This document shows, one piece after another, positions 3,698 through 14,346 of a stretch of 58,817 nucleotides of DNA. Origin of the DNA: Gammaproteobacteria bacterium (lineage in GTDB: Bacteria; Pseudomonadota; Gammaproteobacteria; Thiohalospirales; Thiohalospiraceae); the NCBI GenBank assembly GCA_029883105.1, contig JAOUJT010000002.1, positions 1-58,817 of the forward strand, in the 5' to 3' direction. The notes beneath the pieces were generated by a model. It saw only the letters and a program-made list of their open reading frames with translations, had not been told where the DNA came from and made no database searches. Within the stretch, counting starts at the first letter, position 1, and every line of letters begins with the position of its first letter. The position numbers and the translations under genes were made by a program.

Positions 3698-5854
3698 ATG
3701 CTAAAGCGTTTACTTGCTTCAAAGTTGTTTATTATTGTGTCATTTCTAGTGGCAACACTAATTTTTTCAAGTGCCATAAGCTCGCTGACAGTTGTGAAAA
3801 GGATGGAGTTGTGGTCATTTGATACACGCATGGCATGGTTGAGAACAGATGCCGTCATTGATGATGATGTAGCCATTATATTAATTGATGAAGCCTCACT
3901 TAAAGCCATGGACTCAACATATGGCAGATTCCCTTGGCCTCGAACTGCCTATGCTGAAGTACTGGACTTCCTCTCTCTGGGCAACCCCAAGGCAGTAATA
4001 TTTGATCTGTTATTTACTCAGCGAGAATTAAATAAATTCAAAAACTCTTATAGTGGTCCCGATCAAGACTTTATTGATGCGACAGCTCGATACCCGAATG
4101 TTATTCACGCAGCACAAATGTTTCACGATTCAACAATTAAGTCAGTCAAGTCTGAGGATGTTCTGCAATTACCATCCGATCTAGTAAGGAAATTTGGCAC
4201 ACCGGGAGACTTTGAGGATACGATACAGAGAAATAATAGTTATGTTGTTCCTATGGAAGAACTTTGGCGAGCGGCATCGGGGTTAGGGATTGTAACTATC
4301 GCATCTGACATTGATGGTATCTATCGACGTGTTCCCTTCTATCATGAGTATGACAATAGTTACTACCCTTCACTATCTATAAGTCCGATTAGCCATTTAC
4401 AGACAATAGAGAATTCGCAACTTAGGGATGGCTTCGGCTTAGAGAATTATCCGCCAGGAACTGAGCATGTTATTAATATGTATGGCGACTATAAGCCATA
4501 TTCAATATCCGGTATTTTCGCCTCATGGAATCAAATAAAAAATGGTGATTTTGAAAACATATTGATTTCGCCAGAAGAGTTTGAAGGTAAATATGTGTTT
4601 GTGGGCGCGAGTGCGGTTGGACTGGATGACATAAAAGCAACTGCCATCTCAAACGTGTCACCAGGCGTAACTATACATGCGATGGCCTTGTCTAATATAC
4701 TGTCTGGGGACTCGCTGCGTGAAATATCAAGAAGATATACTACGTTTCTGGGATTATTTATTGCCGGAATATCTTTATATCTAATCCTCTACAGTAAACA
4801 TTATCTTCTTTCCTATTTGGTGCCGAGCTTATTAATTCTAACATTTGTCTACATGTCGTTTGTACTATTCTCAATGAATTACGTTATTGAAATTGTAAAT
4901 CCTTTTTTGATTGCGATCATTTCCATTTTTATGGCAGCGTCTTATAAGGCTATCACTGAAGGTAAAGATCGCCGGCGTGTAAAACATATGTTTTCACAAT
5001 ATGTATCCCATGCAGTTTTGGATAAACTTTTAGATACATACGAAGATACAATTAAAGCGGGAGATGGTACCCGCGAAAAAATAACGATACTGTTTAGCGA
5101 TATACGTGGATTTACCAATCTATCTGAGGCGCTGACACCAGAACAGGTGGTAGAGTTATTAAATATATATCTCAGTGAAATGTCCAATGTCATCATGAAA
5201 TATGAAGGTACCATCGATAAATACATCGGTGATGCAATCATGGCTTTTTGGGGGGCCCCAGTACTGATAGATGATCATGCACACAGGGCATTGGTGGCGA
5301 GTCTGGATATGATAAATGGATTAGTCAATGTCAACGAGAAACTAGCACTAAAGGGTTATGGGGAATTGAAGGTAGGTATAGGCCTTCATACAGGGAGTGC
5401 CGTATTAGGCAATATCGGTTCCGAAAATAAACTCGATTACACGGTGATTGGTGATGCGGTAAATCTTGCTTCGAGAGTTGAAAGTCTCACCAAGCAATAC
5501 GGCTGTGCCCTGTTAGTAACAGAAGATACGAAAAATGAAATCAGTGAAGATTTTCATCTGGGTGTGGTTGATGCCGTACAGGTAAAGGGTAAGAAAATCC
5601 CGATAAAGTTGTATGCCCCGCCGGTCGATATCAATGGTAGACTGCTAACAAATGATGCCGCTGAGCATGATAAAATCTGGATGGATAAAGGCTTTGAGTT
5701 GTACGTTGCACGCGACTGGTCTGCGGCGATAGATGCCTATAATAAGTTACAAAATAAAGTGTTATCAGATACTTATGTTAAAAGGTGTGAGCATTACATA
5801 CAACAAGCACCTTTAGATGAATGGGATGGAGTGTTTGTCCATACTTCGAAATAG
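3698..5854 (+). CDS. CHASE2-domain membrane adenylate cyclase
   Basis: A 718-residue class III cyclase that makes cAMP from ATP. Order: an N-terminal membrane helix (about 10-30), a periplasmic CHASE2 sensor (about 35-330), three membrane helices (about 345-425), then the cyclase domain (about 455-625). Catalytic residues are visible: metal aspartates D468 (FSDIRGF) and D512 (GDAIMAFWGAP), adenine-selecting pair K508/D580, and transition-state residues N589/R593. The K/D pair argues for ATP rather than GTP. The C-terminal tail (about 650-718) looks helical and TPR-like. GGAGGGG precedes the ATG. It heads an operon of envelope proteins, which suggests that the periplasmic sensor reads an envelope or secretion state. 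Confidence 0.92.
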   Translation: MLKRLLASKLFIIVSFLVATLIFSSAISSLTVVKRMELWSFDTRMAWLRTDAVIDDDVAIILIDEASLKAMDSTYGRFPWPRTAYAEVLDFLSLGNPKAVIFDLLFTQRELNKFKNSYSGPDQDFIDATARYPNVIHAAQMFHDSTIKSVKSEDVLQLPSDLVRKFGTPGDFEDTIQRNNSYVVPMEELWRAASGLGIVTIASDIDGIYRRVPFYHEYDNSYYPSLSISPISHLQTIENSQLRDGFGLENYPPGTEHVINMYGDYKPYSISGIFASWNQIKNGDFENILISPEEFEGKYVFVGASAVGLDDIKATAISNVSPGVTIHAMALSNILSGDSLREISRRYTTFLGLFIAGISLYLILYSKHYLLSYLVPSLLILTFVYMSFVLFSMNYVIEIVNPFLIAIISIFMAASYKAITEGKDRRRVKHMFSQYVSHAVLDKLLDTYEDTIKAGDGTREKITILFSDIRGFTNLSEALTPEQVVELLNIYLSEMSNVIMKYEGTIDKYIGDAIMAFWGAPVLIDDHAHRALVASLDMINGLVNVNEKLALKGYGELKVGIGLHTGSAVLGNIGSENKLDYTVIGDAVNLASRVESLTKQYGCALLVTEDTKNEISEDFHLGVVDAVQVKGKKIPIKLYAPPVDINGRLLTNDAAEHDKIWMDKGFELYVARDWSAAIDAYNKLQNKVLSDTYVKRCEHYIQQAPLDEWDGVFVHTSK

Positions 5855-5874
5855 CCTCAATCAGGGAGACAAAG

Positions 5875-6366
5875 ATGAAAGCTATACATAGCACAATTAT
5901 ATTATTGTTGTTGTCGATATTATCGAATGTTGTCATTGCTGCAGACACCAAGTATGTGCGTAGCAAGGTCGCAAAGATATTCAGCGAGGCCTCATTCGCC
6001 TCCTCAGCTTTAAAGACCTTAAAACAGTCAGAAGAGGTTGATCTCATCCGCCAGCAAGGCTCATGGTCGAAAGTGAAGAGTGGGAATGTCGAGGGCTGGA
6101 TGCCATCTTTACTGATTAGCAATTCTAAACCACTAGCCAGGAAGACAATCACCTCTGACCCGGAAAATTCAGATATGCAGAACAATGCTCGTCGCCGTGC
6201 ATCGACGACAACTGTAGCGGGTGCTGCTCGTGGACTTCAGTCCGACGAGAATGAGGTCAACCCTAGTAGCGCGAATTATGAACTGTTGCAGAAGATAGAG
6301 AATAACGTCTATACCGATGAAGAGATCCGGCATTTTATGGAAGAGGGTTTAAAATCAAGTGAGTAA
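5875..6366 (+). CDS. Secreted SH3-domain protein
   Basis: A 163-residue exported protein. A signal peptide spans about residues 1-22, ending near NVVIAAD. A bacterial SH3 (SH3_3-type) domain follows at about 25-80, with the WSKVKSGNVEGWMPSLLI core typical of the fold. The rest is a polar, probably disordered tail with a short helix. Bacterial SH3 domains often bind peptidoglycan or proteins in the periplasm. I chose the ATG at 5875 (AGGGAGAC upstream); an earlier in-frame ATG at 5821 lies inside the cyclase gene and gives no signal peptide. The next gene starts 8 bases before this one ends, so they are translationally coupled. Confidence 0.82.
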   Translation: MKAIHSTIILLLLSILSNVVIAADTKYVRSKVAKIFSEASFASSALKTLKQSEEVDLIRQQGSWSKVKSGNVEGWMPSLLISNSKPLARKTITSDPENSDMQNNARRRASTTTVAGAARGLQSDENEVNPSSANYELLQKIENNVYTDEEIRHFMEEGLKSSE

Positions 6367-7204
6367 AACGAAGTTCATACTACTGATGTTTTTATGCAGT
6401 GTGGTAGTACAGACGGTATATTCATCACAGCGAAATGATGCTCGCGCCCGTTTCTCTGAAGTGACAAAGACCGAAGCCGATCAGACCGCCGATATCAAGG
6501 AAGAGATCAAGGTTGGCCGTAAAATAGCAGCAACTATCCTGGGACAATACCCGTTGTATGATAAACAGGATATTAATGACTATATCTCCAGAGTGGGACA
6601 CTCCTTGACCATTAATTATGGTCGTGAGGAGTTGGAGTATTACTTTGCAATATTAGATACCGATGAGGTAAATGCCTATGCCTCACCGGGGGGCTATATC
6701 TTTGTCACAAGAGGCTTGATGCAACAGCTCAGAGACGAGTCGGAGTTGGCGGCAGTTCTGGCGCATGAAATCATCCATGTAGATAAGAAACATATCGTTA
6801 AGGCGCTTAATATTCAGGGTTATGCCGATAGCGAGCAGCGTGGTGTGGTAACATTTATCGGCGGGATTGCGGTATCGGCTCGGGTAGCCTTTAATCAGGC
6901 GGTAGAATCGGCCATTCATGTTCTATTTTCTGAAGGCCTACAGCAAGAAGACGAATTTGAATCGGATACCCTGGCACTACAGATACTCTATCAGGTGGGG
7001 TATGATCCATTTGCGTTGGAACGGGTGCTAGATAGAGTATCCAATCTGGATAACCATGAAACGGCAGTGGTAAGAAAAACCCACCCTTCTTTTAAGGAAC
7101 GAATAGAAAAGATTACCAATGATTATCCTCAACTCGGTATCACCAGCGGCCATGGGGTAAAGGGTAGGATACGGTTTAAGGACAGAACCTCTGGATTAAC
7201 ATGA
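6359..7204 (+). CDS. Periplasmic M48-family zinc metalloprotease
   Basis: A 281-residue M48 peptidase of the BepA/LoiP type. The signal peptide covers about the first 22 residues. The zinc motif HEIIH has ligands H136 and H140 with catalytic E137. The third ligand is E201 in EFESD, the usual E-x-x-x-D arrangement downstream. The family acts on misassembled outer-membrane proteins. A start at GTG 6359 overlaps the SH3 gene. The stop overlaps the start of the following outer-membrane protein gene in an ATGA junction, so a role in assembly or quality control of that porin is a reasonable inference. There is no C-terminal TPR domain, which makes it shorter than BepA. Confidence 0.88.
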   Translation: MSKTKFILLMFLCSVVVQTVYSSQRNDARARFSEVTKTEADQTADIKEEIKVGRKIAATILGQYPLYDKQDINDYISRVGHSLTINYGREELEYYFAILDTDEVNAYASPGGYIFVTRGLMQQLRDESELAAVLAHEIIHVDKKHIVKALNIQGYADSEQRGVVTFIGGIAVSARVAFNQAVESAIHVLFSEGLQQEDEFESDTLALQILYQVGYDPFALERVLDRVSNLDNHETAVVRKTHPSFKERIEKITNDYPQLGITSGHGVKGRIRFKDRTSGLT

Positions 7205-8535
7205 TAAACAGAAAAATTCTATTTTCACTGGCTCTGCTGCTAGTGATACCCGCACATGCCGATCAATTCCACTATAATGATATTCTTGTTGGCGATAGGG
7301 CCAGTGGTATGGGTGGGGCCTATACAGCCATTTCAGATGATCCTACCGGTATGTTTTACAATCCCGCGGGTATCGTCCTAGCGCCAAATCGAAGTACCTC
7401 ATCCAGTTCACTGGCTTATCAGAATAAGACCAAAAGATATGAATCGGTCATTGGTGTTAACGACTGGCTGACAACATCCAGCTCTTTTATACCAAACTTC
7501 TTTGGTATATTACAGCCCATAGGTGATGGTTACTTTGGGCTTTCCTATGTTATGAACGAGTCGGTGGATCTGTCACAGGCACAGACATTTACCTTTCCAA
7601 TTCCTGTTAATATTGATCCCAATGCCCTGCCGCCATTAGAAAAATTCTCGATCAATTATGATGAAGAGGATACGATTTATAAGGTTGGGCCCAGTTATGC
7701 ACGCCCTTTATCTGATAACCTATCCATCGGTGTAACCTTATACCTTCATGCTCGCAACCGTAATGTCAGTTTCAATCAGGTTGCCGAACTCTACAATTCA
7801 GCTCAACCCGCTGATGAACCCTATCCTGATTTGGGCTACTATGACTGGACCAATCAGCAAATCTCACAGTCAGAATTGGGTTTTAATCCCATCATTGGAT
7901 TGATGTGGTCACCGTCAGAGCACAGTTCCTTAGGCCTGACCCTACAGAAAACAATTATCTTCAGTGCGGAAACCATCACGGAATGTACAAAACAGACGCC
8001 AGATGGAATTGCGGATTTAATCTGCGGAGAAGTCGTTAATCCCGGCACGGATCCAGCTAATCCATTGGATCCAGATAATCCACCCACGGGAAATGATTAT
8101 GCGCATTTTGTTAAAACCTCGAATGGTTACGCGGATCCACCATGGCAGTTAGGGATGGGATGGGCAAGTTTCCCAAATAACAAGCAAGTATTTTCTGCCG
8201 ATGTGAATCTCTATTTTGGCGGTTCAAACTTTCCAACCTGGAATGCCGCTATGGGCTATGAACACTATTTAAGTTCCAGATGGAATACGCGCCTAGGCCT
8301 GTTTACCAATAACTCCAACCAGGGTGTTCCCACTGGGGTCAATGGCTATGAGAAAATCGATGAGTTAGGTTTGAGCCTCAGTTTAGGACGCTTCACAAGG
8401 ACCTCGTCGGTCTCTCTGGGAGTGTCGTATCTGGCTGGTAGAGGTACTAGGGGAGGGATTTCTTCTGTTTCACCTATAACGACCGTAACCAGTGACTCGT
8501 TAACGCTATATTTGACCGCATATTATACAAGCTAG
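7201..8535 (+). CDS. FadL/OmpP1-like outer-membrane protein
   Basis: A 444-residue outer-membrane beta-barrel with a signal peptide cleaved after PAHA (about residue 20). The mature N-terminus has the family signature GMGGAYTAISDDPTGMFYNPAG, seen in FadL/OmpP1 and PorV-like proteins that carry hydrophobic molecules or assist secretion. The body shows alternating polar and aromatic strands and the C-terminus ends LTLYLTAYYTS. The ATG overlaps the M48 protease stop by four bases. It is the last gene of the operon, and its stop codon touches the stop codon of the convergent HD-GYP gene with no base between. The substrate is unknown. Confidence 0.8.
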   Translation: MINRKILFSLALLLVIPAHADQFHYNDILVGDRASGMGGAYTAISDDPTGMFYNPAGIVLAPNRSTSSSSLAYQNKTKRYESVIGVNDWLTTSSSFIPNFFGILQPIGDGYFGLSYVMNESVDLSQAQTFTFPIPVNIDPNALPPLEKFSINYDEEDTIYKVGPSYARPLSDNLSIGVTLYLHARNRNVSFNQVAELYNSAQPADEPYPDLGYYDWTNQQISQSELGFNPIIGLMWSPSEHSSLGLTLQKTIIFSAETITECTKQTPDGIADLICGEVVNPGTDPANPLDPDNPPTGNDYAHFVKTSNGYADPPWQLGMGWASFPNNKQVFSADVNLYFGGSNFPTWNAAMGYEHYLSSRWNTRLGLFTNNSNQGVPTGVNGYEKIDELGLSLSLGRFTRTSSVSLGVSYLAGRGTRGGISSVSPITTVTSDSLTLYLTAYYTS

Positions 8536-10092
8536 TTAGTCTATATCTATCTGCTCATCGGATAGATACTCCTTGGCATACTGGAGATAAACCTTTTTCT
8601 GGATAAACACATCATATATATCCGGATCGATATGTCCGGTTTTCTGCATGTTATCCAGTATGTCTAAGGCCTTGGACAGTTTCATCGGCGACTTATAAGG
8701 TCGATCATTTGCTGTGAGAGCCTCAAAAATATCCGCGATGGCCATGATTCTGGCCGGTACTGACATTTCATCCCGTGTAAGTCCTTTAGGAAAACCCTTG
8801 CCATCTATTCTTTCGTGGTGTCCCCCTGCATATTCAGGGATACTCATGAGGTGCTTCGGAAAGGGAAGTGATTCAAGCATATTGATGGTGACATTGATGT
8901 GATTGTTAATCATCTTCCGTTCTTCGTCAGTGATGGTGCCTTTGTTGATCGATAGGTGATGGATTTCATCCTCAGTTAGAATTGGCTGAGGGGCTCCGCC
9001 AATGATGATGTTGTATTTTTCTGCAAAACGAAGAATCTTTTCAATCGCCTCACTGTCCGTGTATTCACCACCCTTATTCGTGTTGATGATGTGTTCCAGA
9101 GTACTATCTATTTCTTCTGCTTCACTTGGATTTGGAGCGGTGTTTGTTGTAGTGTGGCTTGTAACATTCAAGTCTCGTTTTAATATCTCAAAACGAAGCT
9201 TTATCAATTCTATTCGATCTATAGGCATTTCGAGTTTAGTGGATTTTTCCATCACCCGATCCGGTGTCGTTAATTTTCCACAATCGTGTAGCCATGCCGC
9301 AGTTTCCAGTTGATATAAATCATCTTCACTGATTCTGTAGTCAGAAAAATATCCATCAGAAGTGTTATTGACTGCATGGGCAATCATCATTGTTATAACG
9401 GGAATGCGGCGGCAATGACTGCCGGTATGTGCAGACTTTTCATCGATAGTACTGGCGATCATTTTCACCAGTGAATCGAAAAGTTCCTTCATTCCGTCAA
9501 TAAGCTGCTTATTTGTCAGGGCTACTGCTGCCTGCGAGGCCAGTGACTCTGCCAATTGTTGATCTTCATTGCTGAAGGGCTGGATGGATGTATTATCTTC
9601 AGAGCGGGCATTAATGAGTTGTAGTACACCAATGATGTCGTTTTCATGATTTTTCATTGGAATAGTTAAGAATGAAGTAGAACGATAGCCTGTTTTTTTA
9701 TCAAAATCATAGGTGCCGGTAAAATCATAGCCATTGGCATCATATGCATCAGCGATATTAATGGTTTGGTCATTTAATACCGCACTGGTTACCACCATTT
9801 GTTTATTCGGAGTGCTATCTGCAAGGTATAGGGGGATAGAGTCAAATGGGATCGAGATGCCAGTACTCCCTCCCATGGCATAATTTAGTGAGTCTGTTCT
9901 CACTATGACCATTTCTAACTCTTTATGATCATTGATTAGGTAAATGGTTCCTCCATCCGCATTGGTCAGCTCTTTAGCGCCCAGGAGGATTTTCTCAAGC
10001 AGGCGGTCTGAATCTTTCTCAGTTGATAGGGAAATTCCGATACTGTTGAGTAGGTGCACTCTATTCAACAAATTTTCATAATTAGCAATCAT
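8536..10092 (-). CDS. GAF and HD-GYP domain protein (probable c-di-GMP phosphodiesterase)
   Basis: A 518-residue cytoplasmic signalling protein. A GAF sensor domain occupies about residues 15-200. The HD-GYP phosphohydrolase follows: HDCGK (H269, D270), then HHERIDGKGFPKG beginning at H425. HD-GYP enzymes hydrolyse the second messenger c-di-GMP. Two departures are visible. The GYP triplet is GFP, which other active relatives tolerate. The HD and HHE motifs are about 155 residues apart rather than the usual 60-70, through an extra helical, Thr/Asn-rich stretch. No membrane segment is seen. The gene faces the adenylate cyclase operon, so cAMP and c-di-GMP enzymes meet here. Confidence 0.88.
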   Translation of the reverse strand: MIANYENLLNRVHLLNSIGISLSTEKDSDRLLEKILLGAKELTNADGGTIYLINDHKELEMVIVRTDSLNYAMGGSTGISIPFDSIPLYLADSTPNKQMVVTSAVLNDQTINIADAYDANGYDFTGTYDFDKKTGYRSTSFLTIPMKNHENDIIGVLQLINARSEDNTSIQPFSNEDQQLAESLASQAAVALTNKQLIDGMKELFDSLVKMIASTIDEKSAHTGSHCRRIPVITMMIAHAVNNTSDGYFSDYRISEDDLYQLETAAWLHDCGKLTTPDRVMEKSTKLEMPIDRIELIKLRFEILKRDLNVTSHTTTNTAPNPSEAEEIDSTLEHIINTNKGGEYTDSEAIEKILRFAEKYNIIIGGAPQPILTEDEIHHLSINKGTITDEERKMINNHINVTINMLESLPFPKHLMSIPEYAGGHHERIDGKGFPKGLTRDEMSVPARIMAIADIFEALTANDRPYKSPMKLSKALDILDNMQKTGHIDPDIYDVFIQKKVYLQYAKEYLSDEQIDID

Positions 10093-10620: not shown

Positions 10621-10691
10621 CGACACTTAGAACCTCCTGCCGGAGCTTCAATAAATGTTACCCAAAGGGCACACGACCCTACGCCTCGCTA
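10621..10691 (+). repeat. Dispersed palindromic repeat, copy A
   Basis: About 71 bases starting CGACACTTAGAACCTCC and ending near CTCGCTACG. It can fold as ACACTTA...CTCC/GGAG...TAAATGT. It is about 85 per cent identical by eye to the copy at 54273-54345, including the shared stretch GTTACCCAAAGGGCAC. Confidence 0.8.
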
Positions 10692-10746
10692 CGACACTTA
10701 GAAATTCCTTCAGAGCTTCATTAAGTGCCCCTATGCTTCGCTACGG
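10692..10746 (+). repeat. Dispersed palindromic repeat, copy B (shorter)
   Basis: Directly abuts copy A in the same orientation. It has CGACACTTAGAA, then CTTCAGAG, then CATTAAGTG, and ends CTTCGCTACGG. The outer arms CACTTA/TAAGTG are perfect. It lacks the TTACCCAAAGGGCAC part, so it is an internally deleted copy. Confidence 0.75.
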
Positions 10747-10790
10747 CGACCACGGAACGTGGGCTCTCATCCACAGCGCCGGAACAATAA

Positions 10791-10820
10791 AAAAGGCCCA
10801 ACCTTTCGGCTGGGCCTTTT
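10791..10820 (-). terminator. Terminator of ssrA (works on both strands by sequence)
   Basis: GGCCCA (10795-10800) pairs with TGGGCC (10811-10816), with inner CC/GG pairs and a TTTC loop. A-runs lie on the left and T-runs on the right, so it has a T tract on either strand. It sits 9 bases past the tmRNA CCA end. Confidence 0.85.
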
Positions 10821-10828
10821 TCATTGTT

Positions 10829-11192
10829 TGGTGGAGGCGGGGGGAATCGAACCCCCGTCCGCGAGCACTCCGCCATCGGCTCTACATGCTTATCAGGTCT
10901 ATTTATTTAACTGATGGCTACCCGACAGGCAGGGAAAACTATCAGCGATTTCGGTAAAGTTTTAGCGAATCCACCCCGAACGTGTTTCATCGCGAGCTTG
11001 TTAGAGTCGACCCCTGGAATCTGATGCATACAAGCATGCTTCAGGCAGAGGGCTTTACGCTGGTGTTTAAGCAGCTAAAGCGTAGTTGTCGTCGTTGGCA
11101 ACTATAATTTTTCCAGTATTATTTACGAGGTTACTGAAATCCTCGGCATGCACCTCAGGTTTTGCTACCCACGTCGAAGCCAGGGCGCCCCC
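10829..11192 (-). ncRNA. ssrA: Transfer-messenger RNA (tmRNA)
   Basis: A one-piece tmRNA of 364 nt that rescues stalled ribosomes. On the minus strand it starts GGGGGCG, which pairs with CGCCTCC before the encoded ACCA 3' end (one G-U pair). The T arm reads GGGGGTTCGATTCCCCC. The tag frame at 11099-11067 encodes ANDDNYALAA followed by TAA, with GCC as resume codon, close to the E. coli tag ANDENYALAA. Its partner gene smpB lies 55 bases upstream on the same strand. Confidence 0.97.
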
Positions 11193-11247: not shown

Positions 11248-11730
11248 CTAGCCGTGCTTTAACACACGTTGTTTTTCCCGTTTCCAATCCTGGTCCTTGG
11301 AGCTGGCACGTTTGTCATGGTCGGCCTTACCCTTGGCCAGGCCTATATCCATTTTCACGTAGCCGTGCTTCCAGTACATGGCCAGGGCAACAATGGTATA
11401 GCCTTTGCGCTCTACCTGACCGATGAGTTTGCTAAGCTCGGAGCGGTGTAGCAGCAGCTTACGCACACGGGTAGGTTCCGGATGGATGTGGGTAGAGGCT
11501 GACAGCAGGGGACTGATCTGCAGGCCAGAGACCCAGGCCTCGCCATTCTTGATGAAGACGTAGCTTTCGGTCAGGTTGACCTTGCCTTCGCGCAGACTTT
11601 TGACCTCCCAGCCTTGCAGGACGATGCCTGCCTCGAATCGGTCCTCGATAAAAAAGTCGTGTCTGGCCTTTTTATTCTGGGCGATGGTACTGTTGCCGGA
11701 CTTTTTGTCGTTGTTTGCTTTCTTTGCCAT
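11248..11730 (-). CDS. smpB: SsrA-binding protein SmpB
   Basis: A 160-residue partner of tmRNA that binds its tRNA-like end and takes it into stalled ribosomes. Family features: [34 protein letters not shown], the [11 protein letters not shown] segment, [12 protein letters not shown], and a basic C-terminal tail ([12 protein letters not shown]) that enters the mRNA channel. I chose the ATG giving [10 protein letters not shown], which fits the family; another ATG three codons upstream cannot be excluded and neither has a clear ribosome site. ssrA follows downstream on the same strand. Confidence 0.95.
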
Positions 11731-11834
11731 GGCGCGCATTATAACGGAGTCTGGCGCACTCTCCTATGTTCGGTTGAGCTATCGTTGGAATTCCCGCAGA
11801 ATGTATAAAATAATAAGGATCTTGGGGGAGAAGT

Positions 11835-13978: not shown

Positions 13979-14284
13979 TTATTCGGCAGCCTTGCCGGAG
14001 ATCTGAGTCAAGCGGTTCTTGTTAAATGACAAGCTGAGGTTGGTTTTCTTCACCAGTTTGCCATCTTGTTTCAGGCTGTAGAAATAATCCCAACGATCAC
14101 GTGTAAAAGCATGACGCACCATCGGCGTGCCCAATATTTTTTGTACCTCACGTTTATCCATGCCGACGCGAAGCATCGCCACAGATTCCTGACTGATGAG
14201 ATTGCCTTGTTGCAGCTCGGCTCGATAGACCGAGCAGGAGGTCAGTATGGCGAGGGAAATTATTTGAATGAGAATCTTTTGCAT
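13979..14284 (-). CDS. bamE: Outer membrane assembly lipoprotein BamE
   Basis: A lipoprotein of about 101 residues of the BamE (SmpA/OmlA) family, part of the BAM complex that inserts beta-barrels. The lipobox is LTSC. The mature part has the family core SQESVAMLRVGMDKREVQKILGTPM, then DRWDYFY and SLSFNKNRL. I chose the ATG at 14284, which gives a compact lipoprotein signal; a frame from 14323 would add 13 residues. It is divergent from fur (62 bases between starts) and convergent with rnfH (2 bases between stops), as in many gammaproteobacteria. Confidence 0.92.
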   Translation of the reverse strand: MQKILIQIISLAILTSCSVYRAELQQGNLISQESVAMLRVGMDKREVQKILGTPMVRHAFTRDRWDYFYSLKQDGKLVKKTNLSLSFNKNRLTQISGKAAE

Positions 14285-14346
14285 TTGTTTTAGGGGCTCT
14301 GTATTCTTGTGCTCGACGTTCATTATGACATAGATATGAGGCCTTC

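Follow-up and report, generated by a model that had tools for sequence, protein, structure and literature searches.

The window, the whole stretch of 58,817 nucleotides analysed, carries at positions 3698–8535 four contiguous genes on the + strand, encoding a CHASE2 adenylate cyclase, an SH3 protein, an M48 protease and a FadL-fold barrel. With the gene that converges on them, the features are the following:

3698–5854, + strand: CHASE2 adenylate cyclase, 718 aa (Pfam; membrane segments from the sequence)
5875–6366, + strand: periplasmic SH3 protein, 163 aa (Pfam SH3_3 below the cut-off, motif conservation, model)
6359–7204, + strand: periplasmic M48 metalloprotease, 281 aa, GTG start (Pfam, PDB relatives, residues)
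7201–8535, + strand: FadL-fold outer-membrane barrel, 444 aa (AlphaFold model, VIA-align, residues)
8536–10092, − strand: GAF and HD-GYP protein, convergent, a recurrent neighbour (Pfam)

The tightly coupled four-gene operon proposed in the initial annotation was confirmed, the overlaps of 8 bases between the SH3 and M48 genes (6359–6366) and of 4 bases between the M48 and barrel genes (ATGA, 7201–7204) being exact. The longest SH3 reading frame (5821–6366) runs into the end of the cyclase gene. Position 5875 is the more likely start of the SH3 gene than 5821, since the ATG there is closely preceded by a Shine-Dalgarno-like AGGGAG and opens a clear signal peptide; a 20-base gap would then separate it from the cyclase gene. 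Upstream of the set lie UPF0227 and DUF1249 genes (Pfam). Downstream the GAF/HD-GYP gene, possibly an accessory part of the system, ends at the base right after the barrel gene, with zero gap and on the opposite strand. Promoter-like sites numbered 12 against 15.2 expected and terminator-like sites 7 against 3.2 expected, the latter scattered. The genome of the window comprises 3.03 Mb in 391 contigs and is 90% complete. Plasmid carriage was rejected, as a search of a plasmid collection gave no match. Further along the window, a tmRNA gene (10829–11192; tag ANDDNYALAA) lies beside an smpB-like ORF (11248–11739), and the ORF listed at 10655–10957 overlaps it and is likely spurious.

The initial annotation named, as one part of what would refute the operon, a lack of conservation beyond close relatives; the distribution of the set does not refute it. 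A named scan yielded 265 relatives of the barrel, of which the best 80, selected by barrel similarity, were kept and together with the window formed 81 loci. These loci belong to at least seven phyla as named in the sequence records: Pseudomonadota (Gammaproteobacteria and Nitrosomonadales), Nitrospirota, Nitrospinota, Desulfobacterota/Geobacter, Aquificota, Bdellovibrionota/Oligoflexia and Spirochaetota/Leptospiraceae. Among the 81 (the best 80 of 265 plus the window), the M48 gene was present in 77, the SH3 gene in 75, the cyclase gene in 61 and the full set in 60, some of the missing genes being explained by contig ends. The order cyclase–SH3–M48–barrel on one strand was found in 46 of the 60 full sets, counting L017, which appears out of order only through an M48 ORF extending further upstream. 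The barrel gene was divergent in nine sets, mostly in Nitrosomonadales-type records, the cyclase gene followed the barrel gene in two, and two more were rearranged (L063, L095). The intact set is also present in the cultured species Oceanospirillum sanctuarii and O. multiglobuliferum. Distance-matrix correlations among the four proteins ranged from 0.67 to 0.79 over 50 loci, which fits a shared history and is inseparable from the history of the species.

Also the distribution of the genes among genomes was congruent. In a class draw of 369 Gammaproteobacteria genomes, searched with models of the barrel, the SH3 protein and the cyclase, the barrel model matched 14 genomes (E 1e-20) and the SH3 model 14 genomes above 100 bits (next best 48). 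The cyclase model matched 13 genomes at 779 bits or more and G044 at 494 bits, its gene being split in two frames (cut >490 bits, next 446); the SH3 and cyclase cuts were chosen after the score gaps were visible. The three sets of 14 genomes, from nine families, were identical (G000, G033, G044, G047, G063, G111, G180, G201, G249, G251, G297, G305, G326 and G346). The models were built partly from G000, G033, G044 and G047; the other ten genomes did not contribute, and they include G249, where the cyclase was present though on a separate contig. An M48 gene adjoined the SH3 gene in 13 of the 14 genomes, as seen in a local rather than genome-wide check, the contig of G201 ending first. Within the family of the window the set is patchy: in G001, of the same genus, the set is divided within the SH3 gene, whose start shares a contig with the cyclase gene while its end shares another with the M48 and barrel genes. 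Among the nine genomes G003–G011 the barrel was found in none; at 1e-90 the cyclase search matched only G003, with 397 bits. A phylum-wide barrel search of 398 genomes matched only the genome of the window, which shows that the system is rare in that draw; as every row listed belonged to one class, it says little on other classes. Chance adjacency is ruled out by the recurrence in distant genomes together with the co-occurrence, and the four genes are a real, widespread conserved unit.

Variants of the set lacked either the barrel or an adjacent cyclase. Six weak SH3 matches (L136, L137, L138, L139, L141, L143) had an adjoining M48 gene and no barrel, and in five examined genomes (all of these except L138) the complete cyclase–SH3–M48 series was found without the barrel. 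These five genomes do not overlap with the 14 that have the barrel. In the SH3 proteins of the six matches an RGL or KGL motif is retained, L136 being the exception. Four further weak SH3 matches (L140, L142, L144, L145) had neither cyclase, M48 nor barrel partner. As the porin-less sets mean that the barrel cannot be the sole possible input, the cyclase, SH3 protein and protease look like a core to which the barrel would be one input. The cyclase gene was not adjacent in 20 of the 81 loci (best 80 of 265 plus the window), several of them cut by contig ends. A search of 12 genomes without an adjacent cyclase gave some match at 1e-30 in ten: four had a subfamily-level cyclase (699–801 bits), six had weaker matches inseparable from ordinary CHASE2 cyclases, and two had none.

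The cyclase scored above the Pfam cut-offs for both CHASE2 (157.6 bits, cut-off 26.3) and Guanylate_cyc (99.8 bits, cut-off 21.9), and the nearest solved structures to its cyclase domain are cyclases. Its layout, with the segments read from the sequence, consists of one N-terminal membrane segment, a periplasmic CHASE2 domain, three further hydrophobic segments and a class III cyclase domain. Residues were counted over 54 of the 61 cyclase-bearing loci, after removal of ORFs shorter than 500 aa. The metal-binding D468 and D512 and the transition-state N589 and R593 were present in all 54 complete homologues, and the adenine pair K508/T582, which we take to be adenylate-specific and of class IIIb, in 53. 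A second, unlinked CHASE2 cyclase of 36% identity is encoded in the genome of the window. In UBA6915 the cyclase lies in two overlapping frames (L014:4432–6542, equal to L058:6434–8544), either an assembly error or a true split, with an HD-GYP gene directly 5' of it.

The protease has a signal peptide and an HExxH motif with a downstream Glu, and scored 99.4 bits for Peptidase_M48 (Pfam cut-off 20.3). Residues H136, E137 and E199 were found in 75 of 76 homologues and H140 in all 76, so that, as far as residues can tell, both enzymes fit working catalysts. The closest solved relatives in the PDB are the M48 peptidase 3c37 and BepA; that 3c37 would be the Geobacter protease of the system was rejected, since a Geobacter member matches it only distantly. 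The NCBIfam model of BepA gave 102.5 bits against a cut-off of 570, covering only profile positions 8–251 of 483, which places the protease outside that family; the score for the LoiP model was far below its cut-off. The M48 catalytic domain and the periplasmic location are common to BepA, LoiP and the system protease, whereas the TPR domain of BepA is absent from the latter. LoiP is expected to have a lipobox, and none was seen in the sequence of the system protease.

The SH3 protein consists of a signal peptide and an SH3_3 domain (Pfam 26.2 bits, just under the cut-off of 27), followed by a near-invariant motif R.R.S...RGL at residues 106–121 (R106, R108 and G120 in 73 of 74 sequences, S110 in 72 and L121 in 71). 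In the predicted model (pLDDT 82) the SH3 domain was confident, and residues 90–130, which include the motif, were of low confidence; this segment is probably flexible. A fold search with the model produced SH3-domain matches and, for the tail, nothing informative. In the sister species of the same genus (G001; L158, last 400 bases, contig C211), the SH3 gene has an in-frame TAG near the contig end, perhaps through an error of assembly.

For the barrel no Pfam match was obtained at E 0.01, and the profile match to solved FadL was weak (E 0.00055). The FadL-like label comes from the AlphaFold model, built from an alignment of 58 barrels (pLDDT 86.3, pTM 0.83). In this predicted model the barrel, an N-terminal hatch and an NPA motif, the structural marks of the FadL superfamily, are all present, N54 and P55 being found in 80 of 80 homologues. 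The top VIA-align score was to E. coli FadL (1t16; Z 35.2, 3.9 Å over 367 residues), with which the barrel shares fold, hatch, NPA motif and the position of the mature N-terminus, residue 21 aligning with FadL residue 1; it differs in having about 13–15% identity in structural alignments, no Pfam match and other operon partners. The stretch from residue 21 to the NPA motif is, by eye, of equal length in nearly all homologues. The N-terminal tail of FadL reaches into the ligand pocket, and by analogy it is plausible that the tail of the barrel responds to a ligand.

Signalling genes recur around the set. Of the 81 loci (best 80 of 265 plus the window), 16 had an HD-GYP gene no more than 8 kb from the barrel, a count on which it was rejected as a fixed fifth part; such neighbours may point to c-di-GMP also mattering. 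A class-II cAMP-phosphodiesterase-like gene lay within 8 kb in 11 of the 81 loci (Pfam for two). PDEase_II was found in 13 of the 14 system genomes and in 118 of the 355 remaining ones (p 9e-6, Fisher test), and the association was counted as weak support because the proteins also match RNase Z models and the test ignores relatedness. The genome of the window encodes 11 cNMP-binding proteins and one PDEase_II-like protein, the latter away from the set. In two other genomes (G234:C107, G256:C2) PDEase_II-like genes lie within about 200 bases of other CHASE2 cyclase matches, so the pairing may extend beyond the four-gene system. Glycine-rich, signal-peptide-bearing proteins occur near SH3–M48–barrel genes in L027, L047, L072, L075 and L077, the two that were scanned having no Pfam match. 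Downstream of Geobacter-type triads lies a GAF-T2SSE ATPase (L027:11631–13931, Pfam), with similar ORFs in L032, L037 and L059.

As the four products together extend across both membranes, they are most simply read as a trans-envelope cAMP relay, and the set may well be a pathway reporting cell-surface events to the interior. The barrel would give the input, either through its own state or through a hydrophobic molecule that binds to or passes its pore, which the N-tail would plug. In the initial annotation, the state of the porin or a secreted product was suggested as what may be sensed. The SH3 protein and the protease would relay the signal, most likely via the conserved R.R.S...RGL segment as a possible site of binding or cleavage by the protease. 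The outcome would alter the cyclase in the inner membrane through its CHASE2 domain, and the cAMP made would serve Crp-family and other cNMP-binding proteins. Each step of the signal flow is one that we infer, including its direction, the role of the protease and its relation to the SH3 protein, the contact with CHASE2, the ligand and the output genes. As a four-component pathway from barrel through SH3 protein and protease to cyclase, this reading is held tentatively, as one that falls only somewhat short of probable. It is favoured by the conserved unit, the co-occurrence, the catalytic residues, the FadL fold with its tail, the phosphodiesterase-like neighbours, the cNMP-binding proteins and the precedent of NsrA, and weakened by the porin-less sets, the loci without an adjacent cyclase, the HD-GYP neighbours and the loose phosphodiesterase assignment. 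Its most specific form, in which the FadL-type channel is a receptor and M48 action on the SH3 segment switches the cyclase, would amount to an undescribed and widespread proteolysis-gated cAMP signalling, and is unlikely.

Alternatively, the set could serve outer-membrane surveillance, a BepA-like M48 protease clearing misassembled barrels with the SH3 protein as adaptor or substrate, and cAMP reporting assembly stress instead of an outside ligand. BepA is among the nearest solved relatives of the protease, and BamG, which belongs to the FadL family and forms part of BAM in Bacteroidota, was the first Foldseek match of the barrel, ranked about equal with FadL. However, VIA-align placed BamG (Z 31.9) below FadL and the aromatic channels, and the BamG family model NF053685 (cut-off 250) gave 27.8 bits for the L050 barrel, the barrel of the window not being among the matches listed. 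BamG is set apart from channels by an N-tail extension in the consulted parts of PMC12578637 and PMC12611786, whereas the barrel tail has the length of that of FadL. The protease also lacks the TPR domain expected of a BepA-like enzyme, no bam gene family was found among the recurrent neighbour families, and the BamE-like ORF of the window (13979–14323, by eye) lies 5 kb off amid ordinary housekeeping genes. Surveillance is rather unlikely. The earlier description of the products as outer-membrane assembly-type proteins holds in part: 3c37 and BepA are nearest to the protease, and the fold matches of the barrel include BamG, though by VIA-align FadL is the closest of them.

Substrate uptake, with the barrel importing a hydrophobic compound, the cyclase tuning metabolism and the SH3 protein and protease just maturing or anchoring the barrel, agrees with a fold closest to the fatty-acid and aromatic channels FadL, TodX, TbuX and CymD. 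The recurrent neighbour families include no catabolic gene family, though, and the porin-less sets would be left unexplained; this reading is improbable. A PorV-like device anchoring or exporting a surface protein under cAMP control, hinted at by weak PorV-family matches and by glycine-rich secreted or lipoprotein-like genes adjoining SH3–M48–barrel in L027, L047, L072 and L075 and adjoining the barrel at the contig edge in L077, is very unlikely, as the PorV/PorQ family score was 34.4 bits against a cut-off of 90 (NF033709), the PorV fold match (Z 25.8) was well below that of FadL, and the secreted neighbours vary by locus, none being seen adjoining the set of the window. Kinship with PorV and type IX systems was rejected on the same weak sequence match and fold ranking.

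The trans-envelope relay can be compared with several known systems. Full-text literature on CHASE2 together with M48, SH3, PorV or outer-membrane proteins (subscription papers and preprints being mostly outside its scope) held no description of the set, in agreement with its presumed novelty. Bacteroidota BamG and PorV are, according to the consulted parts of PMC12578637 and PMC12611786, FadL-family barrels that serve in complexes, not as channels; their structural scores against the barrel were below that of FadL. The Burkholderia BiofilmReg operon joins a CHASE2 histidine kinase to a periplasmic LysM/FecR protein of wall-binding type, and thus differs in its kinase output and, in the portion of PMC5192318 consulted, in having no protease and no barrel; the same portion describes the recognition target of CHASE2 as unknown. 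In Magnetospirillum the gene of the exported TPR/Ig-like protein MtxA adjoins a CHASE2 adenylate cyclase gene, with no SH3, M48 or barrel partner described in the consulted part of PMC4439547. In Sinorhizobium meliloti the outer-membrane beta-barrel receptor NsrA acts on the CHASE2 cyclases CyaK, CyaD1 and CyaD2 and the Crp-family regulator Clr, and the consulted parts of PMC7529298 and PMC13001267 describe no SH3 or M48 protein in this pathway; according to the part of PMC5498481 consulted, cyaD1 has the gene of a FecR-domain protein nearby. This pathway is the nearest functioning precedent, and the four-gene set appears to resemble it in layout only. In the set, CHASE2 has defined, conserved partners in the periplasm and the outer membrane, which are open to testing one gene at a time, also in cultured species, and if the relay is true, outer-membrane barrels would be coupled to cAMP in bacteria far from the rhizobia.
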